NCBI GenBank assembly: GCA_009928955.1
Contig: SABN01000022.1
Location: forward strand, 1-38,407
Length of the DNA stretch: 38,407 nt
Origin: Opitutia bacterium
GTDB taxonomy: Bacteria; Verrucomicrobiota; Kiritimatiellia; CAIQIC01; Lenti-01
Reading direction: 5' to 3'
The notes under the pieces were generated by a model that worked only from the letters and a program-made list of their open reading frames with translations, did no database searches and had not been told where the DNA came from. Shown piece by piece: positions 2,691-37,721 of the stretch. Made by a program: the position numbers and the translations under genes. The stretch's first letter is position 1. Each line of letters opens with the position of its first letter.

Positions 2691-2757
2691 ATAATTTCCG
2701 TCCGCCGATCCCCGCCCCCCAAAAAACTCGCCCGGTCTTTCCACCCCTGCCCCCCGC

Positions 2758-3612
2758 TCAATTTGGCATTTTCTCGCAGTGTTTGCGCAGAAACTCCTGA
2801 TCGGGCCGAAATCGTTTCGGCATGGAGAGGGGTTGCCCCTCGAATGCCCTAAACTGCACCTGAAAAGCCTGATTGCCGTAGTATTCATTCAATACAGGAC
2901 TGAAAACCATCCGGTAGTCTTCGTCGAACGAGATTAAGTGCCGGTCAAACGCTGCATCGTAGGTTGCGGACAGACATAGCCCGTTGGCGGGATTGAGCCG
3001 GTTGGCTTCGTCATCCGCCCATCCTATGATATGACTCGCCCTCAAAACCTCGGGCACGTTCAGCCCGGACACGCAGCATTGCGTCCGGTACTCATCCAAG
3101 ATCAGTTCCCGGAAGAAATCCTGATTCACGCGCGCCTTGGCTGAGCAAATCCGATCCTTCCCCTCCCGGCTCGCATAATCCACCCCGCGGTCAACCAGCA
3201 GCCGTTCGGCCTTGCCGATCTCCTGTTCGTTAAGACGTCGCACCAACTCTCCCGGGTCACCGCCCTGTTGCGCCAACGCCCATAACTTCTGCTTGTAGGG
3301 CGCCAGAATCAGGAACTCCTGATAGCTTCTCAGCGCCGCCGAATAAAACCCGCCACGCCAATAGCTCGCGGGGGCTTCCCCGCCAAACATCCCGGCATCC
3401 TCCCGCCGCTGCTGTTCCAGCACATGCTCGTAGAGATCCCCGATCCGTTCGGGCGATTCCACGGCAAAGACATCCGCGCAGTCCCGAAATACCTGTGTCT
3501 TGGCTAAGATCGGCCCCAGCAATTCCAATGCTCTTATATATGAACTGGCCTTGTTGCTTCCTTCAATGCCCGCATCTCGCAAGTATCGCGAATAGTGGTC
3601 CCTGGCCGTCAT
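2758..3612 (-). CDS. HNH_2-type restriction endonuclease
   Basis: A 284-residue protein with a C-terminal HNH_2 nuclease domain (residues about 178-240): CCVSGLNVPEVLRASHIIGW, then NGLCLSATYDAAFDRHLISF. The HxxxW and N...D.H pattern forms the beta-beta-alpha-metal site. The N-terminal half contains an EAPASYWRGGFYSAALRSYQEFL block also seen in other HNH restriction enzymes, probably for DNA recognition. The start at 3612 is chosen because TGAGG precedes it and because the longer frame would run through the upstream gene. It is the last gene of the minus-strand operon, 19 nt after the first HNH gene. It is probably a second nuclease of the restriction-modification system. Confidence 0.78.
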   Translation of the reverse strand: MTARDHYSRYLRDAGIEGSNKASSYIRALELLGPILAKTQVFRDCADVFAVESPERIGDLYEHVLEQQRREDAGMFGGEAPASYWRGGFYSAALRSYQEFLILAPYKQKLWALAQQGGDPGELVRRLNEQEIGKAERLLVDRGVDYASREGKDRICSAKARVNQDFFRELILDEYRTQCCVSGLNVPEVLRASHIIGWADDEANRLNPANGLCLSATYDAAFDRHLISFDEDYRMVFSPVLNEYYGNQAFQVQFRAFEGQPLSMPKRFRPDQEFLRKHCEKMPN

Positions 3613-3631
3613 ATACCTCACAAGAAAATAA

Positions 3632-4192
3632 TTATTTATACTTTTGGGTAAGCCACGCCAGAACCGCCCTTTGATCGTCAATTGTCGCTCGGCGAATACT
3701 TGCCAACAACGCAATGCGGGATGGTTTTTGCGGCGCGATATTTGAAAGCCCTTCGTTGCAATTCGTACATACAGCACGAAGATTTGATCTATCGTCCGAG
3801 CCACCTTTAGATTTATCTGTTATATGGCCCATCGTGAGCCGCACTGTACGCCCGTTATGATAAGGGTCGGGATCTCCGGCGGCCATTCCACACATTTGAC
3901 AGGTATATCCGTTTCGCTCCAAAACAAAAGCTCGTGTTTCCTTTGATATATCACGCGCAAATGCAGGTCGCTGTTTTTTGCTCTCAAGAATATATTGACC
4001 TGGTTTTAAATTCGCACGATCCTTGTGCGACAAAACTGGCCACCCCTGTTCATCCCTCAATTCGCGCAATCGACGCCCCCACTCTGCCCTCCAGCCAGAC
4101 GCCTCTTGTATTTCTTTCGAGTCAACCACCTCGCCCACATGCAAAAGGAGATAGTCGAGAATTAACTGTTTGGAGCCTTTGTTTTTCGGCAT
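3632..4192 (-). CDS. HNH endonuclease of the restriction-modification operon
   Basis: A 186-residue protein with an N-terminal winged-helix-like segment (LILDYLLLHVGEVVDSKEIQ, then RELRDEQGWPV) and a C-terminal classical HNH zinc-finger nuclease. The nuclease pattern is CQMC, MGHITDKSKGGSDD, SNLRAVCTNCN, with paired CxxC knuckles and the catalytic GHI. It overlaps the methyltransferase 3' end by 31 bp, and GAGGA lies 6 nt before its ATG, so the two are translated in tight linkage. By position it is the likely cognate restriction nuclease. The recognition sequence cannot be read from the protein. Base composition here is clearly lower in GC than in flanking genes, a sign of horizontal transfer. 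Confidence 0.8.
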   Translation of the reverse strand: MPKNKGSKQLILDYLLLHVGEVVDSKEIQEASGWRAEWGRRLRELRDEQGWPVLSHKDRANLKPGQYILESKKQRPAFARDISKETRAFVLERNGYTCQMCGMAAGDPDPYHNGRTVRLTMGHITDKSKGGSDDRSNLRAVCTNCNEGLSNIAPQKPSRIALLASIRRATIDDQRAVLAWLTQKYK

Positions 4193-5199
4193 TTGTATCC
4201 TCGCTTGGCCTTAGCTTCCATAAGCACGAGTTGGCCAGTCTTTACTTCTGGGAGTGCTATTTGTTTCCGATTGAGCGCGCTTAAAATCGAGGTTGCAACG
4301 GCTCGCGCAACTAATGGAGGAAAGGCATTTCCAATTTGCCGGTATGATGCTGTTTTCCCTCCCATGAATTGCCATTCGTCAGGAAAACTTTGAATTCGGG
4401 CAGCCATTCGAATAGTCAACCGGGGAAGACCGTCCATTGGAAAATCAATGCTTGGCGCGGAATTAGCAATTCCAAGGCCATCCACGCCTAACTTGCGCCA
4501 CTGCTGCTTCGCACGTGTAGGTCCTAAATCTGGACCTCCGTGCTTTTTTGATCCGCCAACTAAGGTGGGGGCAATATCCGACGCCTTGGCAGCCCACGCC
4601 TCCGCACCTGGCCATCCATTTTCCCCCATCAAATCAATAAGAGCCTCTCCGACGGAACATCGATGGGGATGGGTCCGCGGCCAAGAATAATATGGAAAAT
4701 CAGCTTCACGAAGAGCGACAATGATAAAACGTGGGCGTAATTGAGGAACGCCATAATCGGACGCCTCTAAAACACGGCTCGTTACGGCGTACCCCATAGA
4801 GGACAACTGGGCAAAAAGCACACGTCGGTAGTCTTCGAATTTTGCAGAATCCAACCCCTTTACATTTTCGAGCATAACTGCGCGGGGGCGGGCTACCCGA
4901 ATAATATCAAGAGTCGCCGGAAACATATCGCGCTCATCGTTCCCGCCAAGTTGCTTGCCGGCAATGCTGAATGGAGGGCAAGGCACGCCCGCAGCCAAAA
5001 GATCAACCCCCTTGAAGCTTTCCGCCCGCAAGTGCCGAATGTCCATCTGAAGCACATTCCAATGCGGTCGGTTTTTGCGCAGCGTTGTACAGAACAATGG
5101 TTCATATTCGACAACACCGAGATGATGAAATCCCGCCATTTCCAAACCCAGCGCCTGGCCACCTCCACCCGCGCACAATTCTAAAGCAGTAAGGTTCAT
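4162..5199 (-). CDS. DNA (cytosine-5) methyltransferase
   Basis: A 345-residue type II modification enzyme that transfers a methyl group from SAM to C5 of cytosine. Motif I is ALELCAGGGGQALGLEMAGF. Motif IV is GVPCPPFS with the nucleophilic Cys. Motif VI is ENVKGL, motif VIII RPRFIIVAL, and motif X QIGNAFPPLVA near the C-terminus. The target-recognition region lies between about residues 190 and 280. The start at 5199 (MNLTALEL) is preferred over the longer frame because it follows the regulator stop by 5 nt and motif I then begins at the usual distance. It protects host DNA from the HNH nuclease(s) encoded downstream. Confidence 0.93.
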   Translation of the reverse strand: MNLTALELCAGGGGQALGLEMAGFHHLGVVEYEPLFCTTLRKNRPHWNVLQMDIRHLRAESFKGVDLLAAGVPCPPFSIAGKQLGGNDERDMFPATLDIIRVARPRAVMLENVKGLDSAKFEDYRRVLFAQLSSMGYAVTSRVLEASDYGVPQLRPRFIIVALREADFPYYSWPRTHPHRCSVGEALIDLMGENGWPGAEAWAAKASDIAPTLVGGSKKHGGPDLGPTRAKQQWRKLGVDGLGIANSAPSIDFPMDGLPRLTIRMAARIQSFPDEWQFMGGKTASYRQIGNAFPPLVARAVATSILSALNRKQIALPEVKTGQLVLMEAKAKRGYKCRKTKAPNS

Positions 5200-5204
5200 C
5201 GGTT

Positions 5205-5432
5205 TTACGCCTTTGCAATGGCCCGGCAGACTTCCGCCACGGTGCAACCAAGCCCATTTGCCAGCCGTGAAAGGCTCACGATGCTTGGATTTCGGACTGC
5301 CCGTTCGATGCCACTGATGTAGGAGGGATCGAGGCCAGAGAGTTCAGCCAGCGCCTCTTGCGTGAGCTTCTTCTGCTCGCGCAGCTCGCGAACATTCTTC
5401 CCCAGGGCCACCAGAACCGGGTTCTTTTTCAT
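5205..5432 (-). CDS. XRE-family C protein (restriction-modification controller)
   Basis: A 75-residue helix-turn-helix protein: LGKNVRELREQKKLTQEALAELSGLDPSYISGIERAVRNPS with the typical Q..LA...G.....IS..ER pattern, followed by a short dimerisation helix. Small XRE proteins encoded just before a methyltransferase are usually C proteins, which time restriction against modification and autoregulate. It is the first gene of the minus-strand operon, 5 nt before the methyltransferase. Two direct repeats upstream (5456-5482) look like its operator. A general phage-type repressor is the alternative, but the context argues for a C protein. Confidence 0.85.
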   Translation of the reverse strand: MKKNPVLVALGKNVRELREQKKLTQEALAELSGLDPSYISGIERAVRNPSIVSLSRLANGLGCTVAEVCRAIAKA

Positions 5433-28972: not shown

Positions 28973-28994
28973 GGAGAATTTCGCCTGTTCCGGA

Positions 28995-29085
28995 GATTTT
29001 TCACCACGGATAGACACGGATACACACGGATTTTCGCTCGAATCCTCTCCCCATCCGTGTCCATCCGTGTTCATCCGTGGTTGTT
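28995..29085. repeat. Dispersed CCGTGT(T)CATCCGTGG repeat
   Basis: Repeated units such as ATCCGTGTCCATCCGTGTT and CCGTGTTCATCCGTGG occur on the plus strand, with the inverse ACCACGGATAGACACGGAT at the left. A related copy is at 36093-36130. Such units are frequent in gaps of PVC-type genomes. The repeat stays in frame with mfd, so it could be mistaken for coding sequence. Confidence 0.75.
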
Positions 29086-29135
29086 CCCGGTTTCGTTGCA
29101 TGATGCATAGGGCGCACCGGCGCAGCATCCAACGT

Positions 29136-29561
29136 CTATGCTTTAGGCGGGGTCAACAGTTTCAAATTCGGGAAATAGGTGCGGTAGCGCCCGATGTCGG
29201 CCGTGGCCAAGGGCACATTGAGCAAATCGGCATGCGCGCCGATGAAAAAATCGGGCAAGGGCGTTGCCGGAGCCGATGGCCCCTTGGTTTTCTTCCGGGT
29301 CGCGCGGAACGCCCGATAGGCCCGAGCGCAGCTTTCCGCGCAGGCGGCCGGCAAATCCACGATTTCGATGCCCCAGGAGCGGATGGTCTGCGCCGCTTCC
29401 TCGGGCCGGGCCTCGCCGACGCAAATCTCGGCCAGCACTACCGGATTGATCAACGCCCCGTCGCCGGCCACGTGCCGGACGATGGTCTCGACCGACCAGC
29501 GATGGAACGGCGAATCCGGATCGGACGCGTAGATCAGGACGTTCGTGTCGAGAAAGATCAC
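29136..29561 (-). CDS. PIN-domain toxin (VapC family)
   Basis: 141 residues. The PIN nuclease acidic residues are present: MIFLDTNVLIY (Asp5), NPVVLAEICVGE (Glu), LPDFFIGAHADLL (Asp) and LATADIGRY (Asp). VapC toxins are Mg-dependent ribonucleases, often against tRNA or rRNA. The start overlaps the antitoxin stop by 4 bp (29558-29561), the usual toxin-antitoxin coupling. Length matches the family (about 130-145). The exact RNA target cannot be read from the sequence. Confidence 0.9.
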   Translation of the reverse strand: MIFLDTNVLIYASDPDSPFHRWSVETIVRHVAGDGALINPVVLAEICVGEARPEEAAQTIRSWGIEIVDLPAACAESCARAYRAFRATRKKTKGPSAPATPLPDFFIGAHADLLNVPLATADIGRYRTYFPNLKLLTPPKA

Positions 29562-29791
29562 AACTCCCTCGTTGCCCGCTTAAGTTGTTTCCAGGAGAGG
29601 GTCGGCCGCAGCGGACTCTCCCGCAAGGCATTGACCACCTGACCCGCCTGCAGCCGGCGCTTGGGCTTTTCCGGCAGCAGGCGCACCAGAATCCAGCGGC
29701 CGGCCGGATCCTGGTTCACCGCAAAGACGTCTCCGGGCCGGGCATTGGGCAACACCACCCGCTTTTTCTGGTCGGCAATGATCGTGCTCAT
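29558..29791 (-). CDS. VapB-like antitoxin with AbrB-type DNA-binding domain
   Basis: 77 residues. The N-terminus MSTIIADQKKRVVLPNARPGDVFAV matches the swapped-hairpin AbrB/SpoVT fold (…VVLP…KPGD…), and the C-terminus (VVNALRESPLRPTLSWKQL) would wrap the toxin. It is the first gene of the pair. A perfect palindrome directly before its ATG is the likely autoregulatory operator. The -10 box lies 6 nt from the ATG, so the transcript is probably leaderless. Confidence 0.85.
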   Translation of the reverse strand: MSTIIADQKKRVVLPNARPGDVFAVNQDPAGRWILVRLLPEKPKRRLQAGQVVNALRESPLRPTLSWKQLKRATREL

Positions 29792-29826
29792 GGTGGGACT
29801 ATCCCACCGCCGGACCGCTTTGTCAA
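29792..29826 (-). promoter_or_regulatory. vapBC promoter with overlapping 17-bp palindromic operator
   Basis: On the minus strand TTGACA (29821-29826), a 17-bp spacer and GATAGT (29798-29803). The palindrome GGTGGGA-CTA-TCCCACC (29792-29808) covers the -10 box and touches the ATG. Bound antitoxin or toxin-antitoxin complex would block transcription. Confidence 0.75.
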
Positions 29827-29901
29827 CCCGCCGATCCGGCCCACGTGGAAGCCGACCATCCCGTCTTTCCCTTTCCCGCTGCCGCGTCCAGGGAAAGACG
29901 G

Positions 29902-29919
29902 GCGGCACTCCCGTGCCGC
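29902..29919 (-). repeat. Hairpin with GGGA loop after the VR-like relic
   Basis: GCGGCAC-TCCC-GTGCCGC on the plus strand: a perfect 7-bp stem. On the coding (minus) strand the loop is GGGA, and it begins about 20 nt after the stop of the FGE-like fragment. GC-rich stems with four-base loops just after a variable repeat are a known DGR homing signal. It could also be a generic intergenic hairpin. Confidence 0.6.
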
Positions 29920-29939
29920 GTTGTTGTTTTGGTTTTTCT

Positions 29940-30070
29940 TCATGGCAGGGTCCTGGCGGGGCGAAAGCCCAGGTAGCTGCTCCGAACGTCCGGGGCGGTG
30001 CCGCTGCGACTCGCGGAACGGCAGACCCCCGCGATGCCGCGCCAACCCCCGCCCCGCCCCACGCGGTCCA
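29940..30070 (-). pseudogene. Relic of an FGE-sulfatase C-terminus, VR-like
   Basis: The frame ending at TGA 29940-29942 reads VDRVGRGGGWRGIAGVCRS and then on to YLGFRPARTLP. It aligns residue for residue with the DGR template product (RGGSW...A..CR...R....PD......GFR). Variable positions in the known VR are also different here, but so are some adenine-free positions, so it does not derive directly from the TR at 31106-31237. The upstream part of the FGE domain (GNVWEWC...) is absent and group II intron DNA begins 100 bp away. It is either the remnant of a second DGR target or of an ordinary FGE-fold gene. Confidence 0.6.
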
Positions 30071-30122
30071 CGCCCGAAACCGCCCCTGCTCCGGAGGCCC
30101 AATCGTTTTTGAAACCCCTTCC

Positions 30123-30147
30123 GGCCGGCGTGGAAGCCGGCCCTCCA
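30123..30147 (-). repeat. Co-varying hairpin repeat H1
   Basis: Arm GGCCGGC, loop GTGGAA, arm GCCGGCC, flank CTCCA. It is in reverse orientation relative to H2 (30870-30889), which lies across the intron; without the intron the two would be about 27 bp apart. Confidence 0.8.
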
Positions 30148-30173
30148 CAAATCCGTTCCGCATTCCGCTCTTG

Positions 30174-30866
30174 ATCGGATGGGGGCACGGGGGATTTCAC
30201 CCCGTGCCCCTTCCACACCACCGGACATGCGGTTTTCCGCATCCGGCGGTTGAACTGGGCCTCCACCCTCACGGGCTTCTGCAAAACAATGGCACGGTAC
30301 ACGTATTTCGCTCCTGCCATTCTTTTCATTGAACAGGTCACCCGACTTCTCGCGGCGGGGATTTGGGAAACTACAAGCGGCCTTGCGAATGAATCCACAT
30401 TCGCGCCACCACCTGCCTTCAGGCTTTGCCCGGTCGGGCATGGTCCTTCGGTTTCAGTTCCCTGTAGGTCTTTCCCCACAACGGAGGTCGGTCTGTTTTC
30501 TCCAGTTCTTCGGCCCTTCGCTCCTGCCGCCTTTCGACGGCTCTCTTCACTACTACGGCCTCTGCTGACTCCTCCGCCGCTCTCGCGCCGGAGGTCTCCC
30601 CAGGTAAGGTGCATGAACTTTCGGCCCGCGCCGCCAGGCTCTACCCGATCTGGCTTTCGGTAACGGTTGGATTTCGCGTTCCCTAGCACGCTCATCGCCC
30701 AGATCGAGCCTCGCTGCCTGTTCGTGTTCCTGCGGTCGGACCTTCGCTACGGACTTCTTTCAGCTCGCTCCCTCGCGGGCGCGGCCTTGTCTTTCGCTAC
30801 GGTTGCTGTCACTGCTCTCCGGTCTTCTCCTTTCAGATGACAAGTTCATGCCCATGCTGGGCACAC
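30174..30866 (-). mobile_element. ORF-less group IIC intron
   Basis: Read on the minus strand, it starts GTGTGCCCAGCATGGGC, the classical group II 5' end. It contains GGAGTCAGCAGAGGCCGTAG (30553-30572), a block conserved in group IIC introns such as that of Oceanobacillus iheyensis. A 34-nt domain V (30217-30250) is followed by a strong domain VI-like stem (GGGGCACGGGG/CCCCGTGCCCC), and it ends ...CCGAT. At 693 nt it has no room for a reverse transcriptase, and none is present. The 5' exon is a hairpin (H2), as usual for class C. GAGGG at 30770-30774 can pair as EBS1 with the last exon bases CCCTC. Removing 30174-30866 restores TGGAGGGACGGG, the hairpin-repeat consensus, which fixes both ends. 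Confidence 0.85.
30217..30250 (-). ncRNA. Group II intron domain V
   Basis: This 34-nt hairpin has a 9-bp lower stem (ACCGCCGGA/TCCGGTGGT, one G-T pair), a 2-nt bulge on the 3' side, a 5-bp upper stem (TGCGG/CCGCA) and an AAAA loop. The CGC catalytic triad follows the first base of the core, as in group IIC. Confidence 0.82.
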
Positions 30867-30869
30867 GAG

Positions 30870-30889
30870 GGACGGGTTCCACCCCGTCC
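30870..30889 (+). repeat. Co-varying hairpin repeat H2 (5' exon of the intron)
   Basis: Arm GGACGGG, loop TTCCAC, arm CCCGTCC. The TGGAGGG flank seen in other copies is split by the intron: GAGGG is at 30867-30871 and the missing TG is at 30172-30173. Confidence 0.82.
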
Positions 30890-31105
30890 GAATTTCCGAT
30901 CCCCATCTCCGCCCACCTCGCATGGATTCCACTTCCAGCCCATTCCGCCCTGTCCACGTGCAGTGAAACAAGCCCCGCCGGAGCCTTCGCCGGACCATCC
31001 AGTCCGTCTACCAACCCCGGCGGGGCGTTGCCTTTTCGTCCCGCTTGGAGGCGGGAACGGGATTTCATCCGGGTCGGCAAGCCGCCCTCCGGCAGACTTG
31101 GCGAG

Positions 31106-31237
31106 CTGGGGGCAGGACAGCCCGGAAGCCGTTGTTGTTGTTGGCGTTGTCCGGGTTGTCGTTGTTGCGGTTGCCCACCCGGCAGTTGTTGGCGTTGTTG
31201 TTCCAACTGCCGCCGCGATCCACGCGGTTGGAGCCCT
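31106..31237 (-). repeat. DGR template repeat (TR)
   Basis: 132 nt, read on the minus strand, 54 nt after the reverse transcriptase stop. It aligns without gaps to the VR at 33135-33266. All of the roughly 25 mismatches fall on adenines of this strand. In the target frame it would read RGGSWNNNANNCRVGNR and onward, with AAC codons at nearly every variable site, the codon type favoured in DGR templates because A-changes there never make a stop. It has no start codon of its own and serves as RNA template. Its 3' end shares CTTCCGGGCTGTCCTGCCCC with the VR. Confidence 0.97.
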
Positions 31238-31290
31238 GTGGATGAAACCCCAAATCCCGAATGCCCGGCACGTCGTTCATCGGCGTGGTT

Positions 31291-32295
31291 TCAAGATGCG
31301 CGGCTGGTCTGCGCCACGACTTGACGCCGGAAGCCGGCCGAATCCGCAAAGCGGACGTACGAAAGCAGCGCCTCCGCATGCCGGGCCAGATCGGATTCCG
31401 ACCAACGGCCGGTTTCGAATTCCTGCTCGAACCCCGCCAAACGCCGACCAAACCGGCGGCGGGCACGTGGCCCCAAATCAAGCCTGTGCGCAAATATCCG
31501 GTATCCCAGAAAGGGCAACCCCCGCGCACTGCGGTTGAGCTGGACGTCGTCCTTGAGCCGGAGTTGAAGACGGGACTCCAAAAAGGCCGTAATTGCCGAC
31601 AAATGACCTTTCAACGAATGCTTGTCGGATGCCCAGAGGACGAAATCGTCCATGTACCGGACATACCCCGCCACCCGCAGCGTCTCCTTGACGAAATGGT
31701 CGAGATGCCCCAGATAGAAATTCGCCAGATGCTGGGAGATCAGGTTGCCGATGGGCAGCCCTTTGCCGGGGGCCATCTCGTAGCTTGAGAGAATCCGGCC
31801 AAGGAGCGCCAGCAAATCGGCATCCTTGAACCGGCGGGCCAGAAGGTCAAGCACCGTGGCATGGCCGATCGAATCGAAGTATTTGCGGATATCCAGCTTG
31901 AGATACCAAGGATGGCGGCGCGCGAAGGATTGCGCCCGCAAGACAGCCTCGTGCAGGCCCTTGCCCTTGCGGCAGGCATACGAATCGTGGATGGCAAACC
32001 GCTCCAACGCCGGCTCGCATACGTTCATGACGGCATGGTGCAGCACGCGCTCCGGAAACGCCGCCGCGCAAATCGTCCGTTCCTTGGGGTCGTGCACGGT
32101 AAAGAAGTGGTAGCGTCCCACGTTTACGGCGCGGGCACAAAGCTGATCGCGCAGCCGGCGCAAGTTCTCGTCCAGCCGGACCGCGTATTCGATCACTTCC
32201 TTCTTCCCGCGTTTCCCTCGGGCCGCTTTCAGATAGGCCAGCCGCAGGTTTTCGGGCTCGGCGATCCGGTCGTAGAGACCACCCGCCCGTTTCAT
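31291..32295 (-). CDS. DGR reverse transcriptase
   Basis: 334 residues, the usual length for DGR enzymes. Motif order: YHFFTVHDPKERTICAAAFP (RT2), WYLKLDIRKYFDSIGH (RT3, first catalytic Asp), GLPIGNLISQHLANFYL (RT4, with the DGR-specific 'SQ' in place of the group II 'PQG'), YVRYMDDFVLW (RT5, YMDD catalytic pair at 214-217) and LPFLGYRIF (RT7). No maturase or endonuclease domain is present. It copies the TR RNA with errors at adenines and the cDNA replaces the VR. The start overlaps the HRDC gene stop (ATGA, 32292-32295), so both are co-translated. Confidence 0.96.
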   Translation of the reverse strand: MKRAGGLYDRIAEPENLRLAYLKAARGKRGKKEVIEYAVRLDENLRRLRDQLCARAVNVGRYHFFTVHDPKERTICAAAFPERVLHHAVMNVCEPALERFAIHDSYACRKGKGLHEAVLRAQSFARRHPWYLKLDIRKYFDSIGHATVLDLLARRFKDADLLALLGRILSSYEMAPGKGLPIGNLISQHLANFYLGHLDHFVKETLRVAGYVRYMDDFVLWASDKHSLKGHLSAITAFLESRLQLRLKDDVQLNRSARGLPFLGYRIFAHRLDLGPRARRRFGRRLAGFEQEFETGRWSESDLARHAEALLSYVRFADSAGFRRQVVAQTSRAS

Positions 32296-32849
32296 TTTTC
32301 CGCCCGGTTTTCCGGAACGGCCGACGCGGAGGTCGGCCCTCCATTCCCGCCCTCTGGAGGGACGGGTTCCACCCCGTCCGGCTGTGGGGTTCCGGTCAAC
32401 GCCACGACCGCCAGCACCGCCGCGCCGTATTTGCCGGCCTTGGCGTCGCCGAGGCCTTCGATCTCCTTCAGGCCCGCCAGGCTCTCCGGGCGCTTCGCGG
32501 CGATGCCCGCCAACTGCTCGTTCGTCAGCACCGCATAGACTGGTATGCCCTCTTGTTCGGCCGTTGCCTTGCGCCAATCGCGCAGGCGGGCGAACAAGGC
32601 GAAATCCCCGGGCGAGAGCACCTCCTTGTAGTCCACGCGCGGCTTGCCGCCGCGCCCCTCGCCCGGACCCGGACCGGACGGAGCCGGTCCCTCCAGAAAT
32701 TCCACTGCCAGCGCCCAGTACGAGTTCTCCCCGTTCGCCACGAATTCCCGGTGCGCCGTCAGCACCCGGTGCGACCGCAGAAAACGGTTCAGATCCTCCT
32801 GCAGGCCCGCGTCGCCGCGGGCGGGTATGGCGTAAAAGCTCAGTTGCAT
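32292..32849 (-). CDS. HRDC-domain DGR accessory protein
   Basis: 185 residues. The N-terminal 60 residues (MQLSFYAIPARGDAGLQEDL, then HREFVANGENSYWALAVEFL) are found in similar DGR-linked proteins. An HRDC nucleic-acid-binding domain spans about 85-155 (FALFARLRDWRKATAEQEGI, then AKRPESLAGLKEIEGLGDAK). HRDC proteins are known partners in DGR cassettes where the Avd protein is missing, and no avd-like gene is visible here. The last 30 residues (PQPDGVEPVPPEGGNGG...) are encoded by an inserted pair of hairpin repeats (32319-32379), so the native C-terminus has probably been replaced. The start at 32849 is chosen by domain fit. Confidence 0.85.
   Translation of the reverse strand: MQLSFYAIPARGDAGLQEDLNRFLRSHRVLTAHREFVANGENSYWALAVEFLEGPAPSGPGPGEGRGGKPRVDYKEVLSPGDFALFARLRDWRKATAEQEGIPVYAVLTNEQLAGIAAKRPESLAGLKEIEGLGDAKAGKYGAAVLAVVALTGTPQPDGVEPVPPEGGNGGPTSASAVPENRAEK
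32319..32379. repeat. Co-varying hairpin pair H3/H4
   Basis: H3: GGCCGAC-GCGGAG-GTCGGCC then CTCCA (32319-32343). H4: TGGAGGG flank and GGACGGG-TTCCAC-CCCGTCC (32355-32379). The facing CCCTCCA and TGGAGGG flanks are themselves complementary. The pair lies within the 3' end of the HRDC reading frame. Confidence 0.85.
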
Positions 32850-32877
32850 GGGCCGCTTGCAAAACGAAGGCCAAAAT

Positions 32878-32958
32878 GGTCGGGGTGGAACCCGCCCCTC
32901 CATAAAACCGCCCAAACGGCCTGTTTTCGCCTCTGGAGGGACGACTTCCACGTCGTCC
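32878..32958. repeat. Co-varying hairpin pair H5/H6
   Basis: H5: GGTCGGG-GTGGAA-CCCGCCC then CTCCA (32878-32902, one mismatch in the stem). H6: TGGAGGG flank and GGACGAC-TTCCAC-GTCGTCC (32934-32958). H6 differs from H2, H4 and H7 in both stem arms at once, so pairing is kept. The pair lies between the target gene and the HRDC gene. Confidence 0.85.
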
Positions 32959-33052
32959 GGGGCCGTTTTGCAAGAGGCTTGCATGTTTCACCATTTGCCG
33001 GGTGCAAGCCCCCGGACCCCCGGATTGAAAATTCCCATTTTCTTGCCTCGTC

Positions 33053-33108
33053 CTCGGTTGGCCTCTCGCTCCGCTCGGTCCCGCTCCGCGAGACGCGGCG
33101 CAACCGAG
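33053..33108 (-). repeat. Nested inverted repeat downstream of the VR
   Basis: The outer stem is CTCGGTTG (33053-33060) with CAACCGAG (33101-33108), and the inner stem is TCTCGC (33064-33069) with GCGAGA (33088-33093). It begins 16 nt after the target-gene stop codon. DNA hairpins or cruciforms just beyond the VR promote homing in characterised DGRs, so this is a candidate for that signal. It could equally serve as the terminator of the target gene. Confidence 0.6.
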
Positions 33109-33123
33109 TACGCTGGCTTGTGC

Positions 33124-35913
33124 TCACGGCCGACCTGGGGGCAGGACAGCCCGGAAGCCGCGGAAGTAGTAGGCGTAGTCCGGGGAGCCGGAGCCGCGGG
33201 AGCCCACCCGGCAGCGGTAGGCGTAGTAGTGCCAACTGCCGCCGCGAGCCACGCGGGAGGAGCCCTCATATCCCGGGTACCAATCGAAACACCACTCCCA
33301 CACGTTGCCCGCCATGTCGTGCAGCCCATAGCCATTCGCCGCAAACGAACCCACGGGCGAGGTGTAAGGATATATTCCATCGTTGTATGTCGGGTGATAG
33401 CCCCGCGTCGGGCTCGTGTCGTAGTCGTATGAACTGGAACTGTAGTAATTCGCCCGCGCATGCTGGATCGTGTCTGAATCGCTCCACGGGAAACGGCGGC
33501 CGGTGGCGCCGCCTCGAGCCGCGTATTCCCACTCCACGTCCGTTGGCAATCGGTACCCGGCGGCGGAGGTCTGGACGACGTCGTTGCTCTGTCCGCCCTT
33601 GTACACGGCCCCGTTGACCGTATAGACCGGTTGCCGCCCCTCCTTCTGGCTGCGGGCGTTGCACCACTTCGCCACGTCCCACCAGTTCACCGTGTGCACC
33701 GGGTGGTTCGCCGCCTTGCCGCTCCCCGCGTTATCAAAGCTGTAGCCGTTGGCAATGGCCCACGTGTACACCTCGTCCCACAGCGCCTTCGTCACCTCGT
33801 ACTTGTCCATGTAAAACGAGTTCACGGTCAGGCTGTACGCCCCATAGTCCGGGTCCGTCCCCGCATTCGTCCCGCCGGGGATCAGGACCATGCCGGCGGG
33901 CGGGGCGGAGGTTGAGCCGCCGCCGGTGACCGTGACCGTGCAGGAGGTCTGCACGCTGCCGACATCGTTGTAAGCCCTGACCGCATAGGTCCCGGCATGG
34001 CCGGCACTGGCCTGCCGGATGGCATATTCGGGCTGGGTGGCGCCGACAATGCGCGTACCGTTGAAATACCACCGATATTGAGGATCCGGAATGCCCGAGG
34101 CCCAACCGGATAGGGTCACGGAGCCGCCAATTGGCACGGTGCGGTTGGGGAAAGTGCCCGAAAAAACGGGAGCGGAGGAGGGGTCCGGATAGTTGGTGCT
34201 CCACAGCGGCCAGCGCTCGTCGTATAGGGTCCATTCGGGCTTTTCTCCCCAGTTGTCGCCCCATACCCGGCTCTCGATGCCCAAGGTGGAGGACAGGCCG
34301 AAATAGAGCGCCCAGTCGTATTGGAGGGGGTTCAACTGGAACGAGCCTTCCAGTTCGGTGTAGGGCACCACGTCGGCCCACAGGCCGGCCAGGCTGTAGG
34401 CCAGCACCGTCAGCTTGGGCTGCACGTAGACCTTGGCGTGGGCGTTCCCTTCCAGTTGCCACGTGATGGGTTCGGCCTCCAGCACGATGTCCGGATTCCG
34501 AAAGCCGTGGGTCCATTGGTTCTGCCGCAACTGCACGGTGAACTCCAGCTCCTTGCCCATGTCCACCACGGTGTGGGCGTTGCCGGCCACGCTGGCGTCG
34601 TATTCATAGCCCGCGTGGAGTTCCACGACGACTTCGATCCAGACCGGCACCGGCCCGATCATCCCGCCGAACACCTTGCTGATGGGCTGGATCAGGGGAA
34701 ATTCGTCGCCACCCTCGACGGCGGCATAGAAAAGCGCCTCGGGCTTGATGTGGATGGTCAATTCGCTGCGGGCGGAGGCGTCGAAGGATTCCAGCCCACC
34801 CCAGCCGATGGCCGCCGCCACGTCTACGTCGGCCGTCAGCAGCCAGCTGCACTCCGGCAGCCACAGCTTCAGGTTGGGATGCTCATAGAGGATGGTTCCG
34901 CCCAGGTCGTCGCCGAATTCGGCGTGCAGCAGGTTGGCCTCCACGCCCACGCCGCGCACCGACAGCCCTGGATCGGCCGGCTGGAAATCCACGGCGGCAA
35001 AAGACCCGGCCGTCAGCAGATTGGTCAGCGAGATGTCCTCCGTCCAGGCCGTGATGCGCAGCAATCCGGCATCCACCGCGTTCGAGACGACTGCGCGATA
35101 GAAGGGATAGGCGGCATCGAAACTAACCAGCCGGGTCCCGTTGCTGATCGCGGGCGGCGCGCCTTCGTAGGAAAACACCACCGCGTTGGAGGTCACGTCC
35201 ACGATCTGCAGGGCGGGCGAACCATCCTTGGGCTTCACGTTGGGCAGCGTGCGCAGGCGTCCGCTGGCTGTCCGCTTGCTGCCGGCAGGGGCCGTCAGGG
35301 CCAGGAACTCGCCTGCCGTTTCCGGGGTGCGTTCCAGCTCGAACGTCCACGTGTAGTTGCTTAAGGCATGTCCCAGGGTGTCGGCGATGGCCAGGGAGTT
35401 GCTGATCGTGGCGCCCGGCGCTCCCAGCGCCGCCGGCGGCGTGAAGATTACGGTGTTGTTTGTCCAGGCGAGATACGGACTGGCATGTCCCATGTTGGTC
35501 CAGCCTGCAATGGAAAGCGTCAACGACTGGGTGTCGATGCCTGCGGCATCCTCCAACGTGATATAGACCGCAGCATTCGTCGCCACCGCGACGGCATTGG
35601 AGGCCGGCACCAGCGCCGAGACTTCGGGCGGTTCCAAGTCCGGCCGGGCGATGCGGTAGAATTGCTTGCCCGCACCGGTCGTCACCGTGTTGGAGGCCAG
35701 CACGTTGGAGAACGATACCCCGGCCGGCGTGAGATTCGTCCAACTGGGCGTCACCAGATCGGGCGTGGCCATGACCTGATAGGTTTTCTCCGGCACCGCC
35801 TCCCAGTCCAGCCGGACCGAACCGGGCCCGGCCGGTTCGATTTCCACCGCCCCGCCCCATGCTCCAGCCGCAAGCCCCAGAACCAATCCCGCCAAGCCCA
35901 ATGTTTTGATCAC
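33124..35913 (-). CDS. DGR target: secreted protein with Ig-like and FGE-sulfatase domains
   Basis: 929 residues from a GTG start with GGAGAA six nt upstream. An N-terminal signal peptide (IKTLGLAGLVLGLAAGAWG) is followed by a 'VPEKTYQVMATPDL' strand module, a large beta-rich region (about 90-600), and an Ig-like domain at about 605-685 (YRWYFNGTRIVGATQPEYAI, then AGTYAVRAYNDVGS). The C-terminal FGE-sulfatase (C-type-lectin-fold) domain runs from about 690 (MVLIPGGTNAG, YEVTKALWDEV, YRLPTDVEWEYAARGG, MAGNVWEWCFDWYPGY). The VR encodes residues about 883-927, on the ligand-binding face of this fold. It is probably an exported, surface-exposed binding protein whose tip is diversified. TTGCCA (35974-35979) and CATAAA (35950-35955) may form its promoter. 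Confidence 0.95.
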   Translation of the reverse strand: MIKTLGLAGLVLGLAAGAWGGAVEIEPAGPGSVRLDWEAVPEKTYQVMATPDLVTPSWTNLTPAGVSFSNVLASNTVTTGAGKQFYRIARPDLEPPEVSALVPASNAVAVATNAAVYITLEDAAGIDTQSLTLSIAGWTNMGHASPYLAWTNNTVIFTPPAALGAPGATISNSLAIADTLGHALSNYTWTFELERTPETAGEFLALTAPAGSKRTASGRLRTLPNVKPKDGSPALQIVDVTSNAVVFSYEGAPPAISNGTRLVSFDAAYPFYRAVVSNAVDAGLLRITAWTEDISLTNLLTAGSFAAVDFQPADPGLSVRGVGVEANLLHAEFGDDLGGTILYEHPNLKLWLPECSWLLTADVDVAAAIGWGGLESFDASARSELTIHIKPEALFYAAVEGGDEFPLIQPISKVFGGMIGPVPVWIEVVVELHAGYEYDASVAGNAHTVVDMGKELEFTVQLRQNQWTHGFRNPDIVLEAEPITWQLEGNAHAKVYVQPKLTVLAYSLAGLWADVVPYTELEGSFQLNPLQYDWALYFGLSSTLGIESRVWGDNWGEKPEWTLYDERWPLWSTNYPDPSSAPVFSGTFPNRTVPIGGSVTLSGWASGIPDPQYRWYFNGTRIVGATQPEYAIRQASAGHAGTYAVRAYNDVGSVQTSCTVTVTGGGSTSAPPAGMVLIPGGTNAGTDPDYGAYSLTVNSFYMDKYEVTKALWDEVYTWAIANGYSFDNAGSGKAANHPVHTVNWWDVAKWCNARSQKEGRQPVYTVNGAVYKGGQSNDVVQTSAAGYRLPTDVEWEYAARGGATGRRFPWSDSDTIQHARANYYSSSSYDYDTSPTRGYHPTYNDGIYPYTSPVGSFAANGYGLHDMAGNVWEWCFDWYPGYEGSSRVARGGSWHYYAYRCRVGSRGSGSPDYAYYFRGFRAVLPPGRP
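33135..33266 (-). repeat. DGR variable repeat (VR)
   Basis: 132 nt at the 3' end of the target gene. Compared with the TR, about 25 bases differ, and all are adenines of the TR coding strand changed to T, C or G. Bases that are not adenine in the TR are unchanged. Typical codon changes are AAC to TAC, TCC, GGC, CGC, TTC or CAC. The shared region ends on one side at GAGCCCT (plus strand) and on the other at CTGGGGGCAGG, eleven bases before the stop. Confidence 0.97.
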
Positions 35914-36002
35914 GTTCTTCTCCCGGATGGAATATCAAATGCAATGCTATTTATGAGCTCTCATCCGCCCGCCTGGCAAGCCCGGAATGGCTTTCTGCGG
36001 CC

Positions 36003-36072
36003 TGGAGGGACGGGTTCCACCCCGTCCGGATTTCCGGTCCCGATCCCGGCCCGCGTGGAAGCGGGCCCTCCA
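36003..36072. repeat. Co-varying hairpin pair H7/H8
   Basis: H7: TGGAGGG flank and GGACGGG-TTCCAC-CCCGTCC (36003-36027). H8: GGCCCGC-GTGGAA-GCGGGCC then CTCCA (36048-36072). This pair has the outward orientation, opposite to H3/H4 and H5/H6. It lies about 100 bp upstream of the DGR target gene. Confidence 0.85.
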
Positions 36073-36092
36073 GAAGTCGATTCCTCATCCCC

Positions 36093-36130
36093 CCCACTAT
36101 CCGTATCCATCCGTGTTCATCCGTGGTTTT
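36093..36130. repeat. Second copy of the ATCCGTGTTCATCCGTGG repeat
   Basis: TATCCGTATCCATCCGTG then TTCATCCGTGG match the block at 28995-29085. It lies in the gap just after the deacylase stop. Confidence 0.75.
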
Positions 36131-36143
36131 TCCAGGCTCCGTT

Positions 36144-37721
36144 TTAGGCTATCAAATACCGCCCGCCGCGCGCGCCGGTGTCTTTCCCGTCGCGGAAGGT
36201 CGCTGCGCCGTTCACCCAGACCGCCGAAATTCCCTCGCCAAATTGGTGCGGCTTTTCGTAGGTCGCCAAATCCCGGAACGTCTTCGGATCGAGCGCCACG
36301 ACGTCCGCGAAGGCGCCGGCGCGCAACACGCCGCGGTCCTTCAGGCGGAAATGCTCGGCCGGCAGGCTCGTCATCTTGCGCACCGCTTCGCCGACGGATA
36401 CGGCCTTCCCGTCCAGCGCCGCGCGCAGGAACCGGCCGAACGTGCCGTAGGCGCGCGGATGCGGATGATCGTGGCTCAGCGGCCCCGTCGTGGAACGGAT
36501 CGACGCATCGGAACCGATCATCACCCACGGCTCGGCGAGGATCTTCCACATGTTTTCTTCGCTCATCCCGAAGAAGATGCCGCCGGTGAACAACTCGTCC
36601 GTCTCCATGAAGCGCAGCGCCGCGTCCAGCGGGTCCAGCTTCCACGCCTCCGCCGCCACGGCGATCGGTTTGCCCGCGAACGGCGCATTCTCCGGATGGT
36701 GCGTGCTGCCGATCCAGACGTTCTCCCAATATTGGTCGTCGCGCGCCGCGGCCATCTCCGCGCGGATCTTCGCGCGTTCCGCCGGATCGCGCAGGCGCGC
36801 CAGGATCGCCGCCCGCCCGCCCTGCGCCGCCCAGGTCGGCAGGATGACGTCCAGATCCGTGCACGACGCGGTGTAGGGATACCGGTCCGACGCCACCTCG
36901 AGGCCTTCCGCCTGCGCCGCGCGGATCTTCTCCAGCGCCGCGTCCAGCTTGTGCCAGTTGGCGCGTCCGGCCGTTTTCAGGTGCGAAATCTGCAGCCGCA
37001 CGCCCGTCGCCCGCGCCACGTCCAGCGCTTCGTCGATCGCTTCCAGCAGCCGCCCCCCCTCGCTGCGCATGTGCGTTGCGTAGATGCCGCCCCGCCGCGC
37101 CACCACCTTGGCCAGCGCCTGGATTTCCTCCGGTTGCGCGTACATCGCGGGCGCATAGACCAGCCCCGTGCTCAGCCCCGCGCCGCCTTCTTCCAGCGCC
37201 GCTTCCAGCAGCACCTCCATCTGCGCGATTTCGTCCTTCGTCGCCGCCCGCGGCGCAATCCCCATCACCGCCGCGCGGATCGCGCGGTGCCCGATCAGCA
37301 TCGCGGCATTCACCGCCGGATGCTGCGCGTCCAGCAACGCGCGGTATTCCGCCACCGAATGCCAGTCGCCGGGATATTTTTGTTCCAGCCAGTCCGACGG
37401 CATGGTGTAGCCGGGCCATCTCGGCGCGGCGCTCGCGCCGCAATTGCCCGTGATTTCCGTCGTGACCCCCTGCCGGATCTTCGACGGCGCTCCCGGCTCA
37501 ATCAGCAAGTAGGCGTCCGAATGCGTGTGGACGTCGATGAACCCCGGACACACCAGCAGGCCCGTGGCGTCGAATTCGTTTGCCGCCGAAGCCTTCGACA
37601 GATCCCCGACCGCCGCGATGCGGTCGCCCGCGATCCCGACGTCGGTCCGCGCGCCTTCCCCGCCGAGCCCGTCCACCACGCTCCCGCCGCGCAAAATCCA
37701 GTCCAACCGCTCCGTTTCCAT
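36144..37721 (-). CDS. N-acyl-D-amino-acid deacylase (D-aminoacylase family)
   Basis: A 525-residue zinc amidohydrolase. Metal-site residues are seen in CPGFIDVHTHSDAYL, EITGNCGASAAP (bridging Cys), GIYATHMRSEGGRLLEA, LQISHLKTAGRANW and VMIGSDASIRSTTGPLSHDH. The C-terminal NPxxA-like cap (GVLRAGAFADVVALDPKTF) is typical. The family removes the acyl group from N-acyl-D-amino acids; some members act on dihydropyrimidine-like rings. The start at 37721 (METERLDWILRGG) fits the family. A possible promoter GTGACG-N17-TACCGT ends 7 nt before the ATG. It is divergent from the response regulator gene. Confidence 0.9.
   Translation of the reverse strand: METERLDWILRGGSVVDGLGGEGARTDVGIAGDRIAAVGDLSKASAANEFDATGLLVCPGFIDVHTHSDAYLLIEPGAPSKIRQGVTTEITGNCGASAAPRWPGYTMPSDWLEQKYPGDWHSVAEYRALLDAQHPAVNAAMLIGHRAIRAAVMGIAPRAATKDEIAQMEVLLEAALEEGGAGLSTGLVYAPAMYAQPEEIQALAKVVARRGGIYATHMRSEGGRLLEAIDEALDVARATGVRLQISHLKTAGRANWHKLDAALEKIRAAQAEGLEVASDRYPYTASCTDLDVILPTWAAQGGRAAILARLRDPAERAKIRAEMAAARDDQYWENVWIGSTHHPENAPFAGKPIAVAAEAWKLDPLDAALRFMETDELFTGGIFFGMSEENMWKILAEPWVMIGSDASIRSTTGPLSHDHPHPRAYGTFGRFLRAALDGKAVSVGEAVRKMTSLPAEHFRLKDRGVLRAGAFADVVALDPKTFRDLATYEKPHQFGEGISAVWVNGAATFRDGKDTGARGGRYLIA

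Follow-up and report, generated by a model that had tools for sequence, protein, structure and literature searches.

A chromosomal HRDC-type diversity-generating retroelement in Kiritimatiellia with a structured RNA element behind its template repeat

The window, i.e., the whole stretch of 38,407 nucleotides that was analysed, is a complete contig of a 3.42-Mb MAG (90% complete, 7.9% contaminated). It very probably carries a chromosomal diversity-generating retroelement (DGR) of the HRDC type from the class Kiritimatiellia, in which a structured RNA containing the template repeat (TR) would be copied with mutations at adenines, and the copy would replace the variable repeat (VR) of a target gene. 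On the minus strand, the order is the target gene with the VR, an HRDC accessory gene, a reverse transcriptase (RT) gene, 53 bp, the TR, 79 nt, and a structured RNA element, R1 (Table 1). The first-pass annotation had proposed a complete DGR at this place, and this is supported by the TR/VR pair, an RT of the DGR clade, a C-type-lectin-like target, and an accessory gene. Its list of parts holds for the core, while the HRDC gene, the target, the RNA, a second DGR, a fossil VR, an intron, and the empty site in relatives lay outside it.

The TR and VR were recounted base by base. Their coordinates and gapless alignment over 132 columns are as first reported, and the approximate count of 25 mismatches, all at adenines, proved exact: 25/25 fall on an A of the TR coding strand. 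The check named in the earlier annotation, a search for mismatches at other TR bases, gave zero among the 25. On the coding (minus) strand, 12 mismatches are A>T, 8 are A>C, and 5 are A>G; on the plus strand, the TR has a T at all 25. The TR contains 36 adenines, 69% of which differ in the VR, and the probability that 25 random mismatches would all fall on these 36 of 132 positions is ~1e-18. The similarity stops abruptly at both ends, and the 3′ ends of the two repeats share a GC-rich identity, a possible IMH. An adenine-tolerant repeat finder detected no other pair of this kind within the window and found A-biased pairs in 71 of the 118 sequences scanned (related loci plus the window). Mismatches confined to adenines are the hallmark of mutagenic retrohoming, and we infer from the sequence that retrohoming has acted on this pair. 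The earlier statement that the VR has been rewritten since it last matched the TR fits the pattern as an interpretation drawn from one genome. Just beyond the VR, inverted repeats might form a hairpin or cruciform; with a fold z of −2.5 here and −1.1 at the second DGR, support for a hairpin is weak.

Table 1. Features of the DGR locus, its site, and related elements. Positions refer to the window unless another locus is named.
Feature	Position	Strand	Basis or remark
Fossil VR of an older DGR (end of its FGE-type target)	29940..30075	-	Match to G003 TR remnant
G003 TR + R1 remnant, partner of the fossil VR	L258 7369-7593	-	Same chromosomal site
Group II intron RNA, ~610 nt, ORF-less	30174-30782	-	Rfam families; between fossil VR and DGR
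R1 RNA element, covarying stem closing the RGUAG/CGAAR internal loop	30966..31028	-	Alignment, covariation, model match
Hairpin upstream of R1 (GUUCCCGC...GCGGGAC)	31038..31058	-	Alignment, pair counts, fold
Template repeat (TR)	31106..31237	-	Gapless 132-bp match to VR, 25/25 mismatches at TR adenines
DGR reverse transcriptase, 334 aa, PIGNLISQ + YMDD	31291..32295	-	Motifs, profile, tree
HRDC-domain accessory gene, 185 aa	32292..32849	-	PF00570, E 1e-20
Possible hairpin/cruciform (inverted repeats just beyond VR)	33061..33108	-	Weak
Target gene, 929 aa	33124..35913	-	Signal-like N-terminus, Big_5, Ig, C-terminal FGE-sulfatase (C-type-lectin-like) domain
Variable repeat (VR)	33135..33266	-	In frame, 3′ end of target gene
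FGE-sulfatase domain containing the VR	33145..33897	-	Pfam PF03781
Second DGR, same MAG, contig C108 (L024 684-5004)	TR 811-947, VR 2729-2865	-	A-only mismatches

The RT that the first-pass annotation had placed between the repeats on account of its ‘SQ’ motif and YMDD box was recovered there with both motifs in 334 aa. Its PIGNLISQ motif stands against PQGxxxSP in the other RTs of related genomes. In a tree of 50 proteins, a split with 100/100 support divides the DGR RTs, among them BPP-1 Brt and RTs from phages, from those with PQGxxxSP; the RT of the window nests with those of L165 and L162, which come from other families of the same class. The best PDB match of the RT profile is 8ub7 (E 1.5e-70), followed by a group IIC RT (2.8e-32). 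We take 8ub7 to be the BPP-1 RT complex; its entry in the PDB table reads only ‘Reverse transcriptase’. A defence-system RT was considered and rejected, the best PADLOC match being a generic RT model. The stop codon of the HRDC accessory gene overlaps the start codon of the RT gene (ATGA), and an accessory gene of this type is present in 87 of the 91 related RT loci. Avd, HRDC, and MSL are DGR accessory types named in PMC10053308. Since the mismatches are adenine-only, the RT motifs and tree point the same way, and accessories of the HRDC type have been described for other DGRs, the cassette is a genuine DGR of a known kind. By its HRDC accessory gene and the nesting of its RT, the predicted system is a member of the HRDC-type lineage.

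The RT frame of the window stops 53 bp before the TR. Among the relatives, the open frame of the RT continues through the TR in L034-L039, L046, L089, L090, L094, and L114, where the TR may be translated as a tail of the RT. The frame is interrupted or split in others: L059/L159 carry one stop (L059), and at G009/L161 the RT match is in two pieces. These broken frames in L059/L159 and L161 perhaps reflect decay or insertion.

The target protein begins with a hydrophobic N-terminus that, judged by eye, resembles a signal peptide, and it is probably exported. Sequence comparison relates its C-terminal FGE domain (Pfam, E 3e-44) to formylglycine-generating enzymes and to TvpA (2y3c, E 1.5e-17). 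In a Foldseek comparison, the folds nearest to a model of this domain are those of CarF and TvpA; the model itself is of modest confidence, with a pLDDT of 65.6 and its weakest part around the VR. The ORF continues for 11 bp past the VR, which lies in the C-type-lectin-like end; this end would be expected to bind a ligand. The TR contains 20 A-containing codons, mostly AAC, none of which can mutate to a stop codon, and the theoretical repertoire from the TR adenines is ~1e20 protein variants.

A second DGR is present in the same MAG. All of its TR/VR mismatches (18/18) are at A, and it carries an RT, an HRDC gene, an FGE-domain target, and its own copy of R1. The two RTs are ~42% identical. 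Its target is cut by the contig end, and Pfam called the FGE domain alone; the first residues of this target resemble the end of a protein kinase. A genome search with the TR of the window found no further VR in the MAG, the only other match being the TR of the second DGR, and the loci of other FGE genes in the MAG gave no match to the TR of either DGR. Misbinning of the contig was considered and rejected: the only mfd gene of the MAG lies in the window and is 87-93% identical to those of congeners. The RT of the window shares 73% identity with its counterpart in G156, a genome of another family, whereas the Mfd proteins are only 47% identical, which points to horizontal transfer. Elsewhere in the window, translation alone indicates an IS3-type transposase pair (1105-2585) and a C5 cytosine methyltransferase-like gene with nuclease-like and regulator ORFs (2758-5432). 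The latter region is a possible restriction-modification unit.

The DGR lies in an island (~28992-36152) between mfd and an amidohydrolase gene. In four congeners, the island is absent and the two genes adjoin. In a fifth congener, G003, the same site holds a PIN gene, a TR remnant, and a match to R1 (E 0.0033); no DGR RT was found there. The fossil VR of the window differs from the G003 TR remnant at 25 of 111 columns, and 20 of these mismatches are at A against 6.8 expected (p 1.7e-10). Because of this match, an older DGR appears to have preceded or accompanied the present one at this site. Between the fossil VR and the DGR lies the group II intron RNA. A PF00078 search of the MAG detects two RT genes, both of them DGR RTs, and none of the group II type. 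The island also holds a cluster of palindromic repeats related to GGAGGGACGGGTTCCACCCCGTCC; the genome has three exact copies of their 20-bp core, all within the window.

This history bears on whether the DGR still works. It could be complete in sequence but inactive, with a VR that is the frozen product of past retrohoming in an element heading to decay. Decay has taken place at this very site, as seen from the fossil VR in the window and from the congener that retains only a TR. However, the RT, HRDC, and target frames are all open, and the pair in the window has zero mismatches outside the TR adenines against five in the fossil pair, which is a comparison between species. We regard an inactive element as possible but rather unlikely, and the DGR may still be active. 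A VR that is invariant across a population would speak against current activity, not against the identity of the element as a DGR.

When the regions behind the TR were aligned for 19 loci, strong conservation was found well past the end of the TR. The core of R1 is a 10-bp stem of nearly free sequence around a nearly fixed RGUAG ... CGAAR. Across an alignment of 30 loci, pairing in the stem reaches 91.7%; each of the ten pairs varies, nine of them with changes on both sides. The covariation score of the structure is 0.94; it drops to 0.19-0.25 if the pairing partners are shifted by 1-3 columns and to 0.23 after shuffling. Because the choice of segments for this alignment rewarded pairing, the held-out loci are the weightiest evidence. 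A model built from the 30 loci (model R1) matches 33 of 52 held-out loci at E <= 0.01, with a stem that is 89.3% paired and a score of 0.87 in an alignment fitted to the model. Loci with other RTs (L117-L132 and L136-L140) gave no R1 match at E <= 1. The window contains a single match (E 2e-13). The upstream hairpin between the TR and R1 covaries too, less cleanly. The RGUA/GAA pattern resembles the bulged-G (loop E, sarcin-ricin) motif.

The distance from the TR to the start of the R1 stem has a median of 85 nt (65-149, 56 loci). Four gene orders occur in the related loci, namely VR-HRDC-RT-TR (59), HRDC-RT-TR-VR (7), VR-RT-TR-HRDC (3), and VR-TR-HRDC-RT (2). Since R1 lies behind the TR in examples from each of them, its position is tied to the TR and not to a gene. 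The element also extends to viruses: 12 of 80 RT-bearing viral contigs match at E <= 1 (5 at E <= 0.01), and 11 of these 12 matches are behind a TR or just upstream of an RT. For seven of the 11 contigs, the TR was also pinpointed, and in each it precedes R1 by 91-109 nt. As nine of the 11 carry a homologue of BPP-1 Avd and two an HRDC accessory, the R1 module crosses accessory types. Over 193 genomes of the class, the model gave 17 matches, 13 of them near a DGR RT and one (L164) at a decayed TR; the remaining three without a DGR (L168, L171, and L172) look like chance matches. The model is thus fairly specific in whole genomes. At L164 (G095:C90, ~850-1115), a decayed TR fragment is followed by an intact R1, and no RT match was found on the contig, so R1 can mark dead DGRs. 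A further model, R2, proved weak as a general model, with few phage matches, and was set aside. In Rfam, no family matches R1 in the window, where group II intron families are the only ones nearby, and at gathering scores none matches the element in eight relatives.

R1 might be merely an intrinsic terminator of the cassette, with no part in reverse transcription. A T-run follows the R1 stem in 38 of 57 loci, and the TR and R1 close the cassette in most loci, so termination may be part of its role. As a full explanation, it is improbable: the RGUAG/CGAAR internal loop is nearly fixed within a freely varying stem, R1 stays behind the TR even where HRDC and RT, or RT, come after, and phage copies lie upstream of the RT without a T-run. 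From its position behind the TR, the RNA is more plausibly assigned a function in the copying of the TR. It is quite possible, although just short of probable, that a conserved RNA module ~65-150 nt behind the TR in many HRDC- and Avd-type DGRs serves as a general docking and priming platform and constitutes an undescribed family.

The notion that the TR/VR pair is an ordinary duplication of a gene end beside the RT of another retroelement (group II intron, retron, or defence RT) is refuted by these data: a group II intron does adjoin the TR and RT profiles of several kinds match weakly, but the mismatches are adenine-only (p ~1e-18), the RT has the motif and clade of DGRs, and A-biased pairs with the same layout occur in dozens of relatives.

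To date, the closest comparisons are with a few described systems. The Treponema denticola DGR, whose target is TvpA, belongs to group 1a and has an HRDC accessory gene that overlaps the RT gene and lies between the TR and the RT (PMC4891356). The overlapping HRDC gene and an FGE-sulfatase/C-type-lectin target are common to both systems; the order is VR-HRDC-RT-TR in the window, and the host and the rest of the target differ. In its downstream TR, the DGR of the window resembles the group 2 DGRs of Schillinger et al. (2012), a class defined by order only; the searched passages of that paper (PMC3521204) contain no RNA element behind the TR. The DGR of phage BPP-1 (Mtd, Brt, and Avd; AY029185; PMC3240598, PMC12875486) shares a DGR RT, a TR/VR pair, and a spacer RNA directly 3′ of the TR. 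Adenine mutagenesis has been reported for BPP-1, and the window has the adenine-only TR/VR pattern. BPP-1, however, has Avd, a TR upstream of the RT, and a phage tail target, whereas the window has HRDC and a TR downstream of the RT. According to PMC10907252, the cellular DGRs found in multicellular bacteria (clade 5) likewise show more than one DGR per genome and are surrounded by MITE-like repeats, a likeness by features and not by tree.

The route by which the RT of a DGR locates its template and begins to copy it has been elucidated for BPP-1. As summarised in PMC12875486, RT-Avd is recruited there by the folded spacer RNA that lies 3′ of the TR, and this RNA also supplies the adenine used for priming. 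We read R1 as the counterpart of this ‘Sp’ RNA on account of its place behind the TR. This place is all that the two share in the comparison; the BPP-1 spacer matches neither model R1 nor model R2, and R1 is therefore not called a member of the Sp family. The searched passages of several DGR papers contain no R1-like element. By this analogy, the TR would be transcribed within an RNA that forms hairpins in its 3′ part, R1 being the last of them. This 3′ part would most likely recruit the RT and the HRDC accessory protein and position the start of the cDNA, as the Sp RNA does. The RT would then copy the TR with misincorporation opposite adenines, and the cDNA would replace the VR. Up to 20 codons of the C-type-lectin-like end of the target could be rewritten in this way, with no stops, within the ~1e20 variants.

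Collectively, these observations add a clean and complete HRDC-type DGR in a little-studied class, and the structured RNA matters more. The comparison of the site, with four empty congeners, one remnant, and one complete element beside a fossil VR, places the gain and decay of DGRs within one genus. If R1 is indeed a general module, covariance searches with it could find DGRs and fossil TRs. Its constancy while gene order and accessory vary would offer testable bases for how the template is found and copying is started outside BPP-1.
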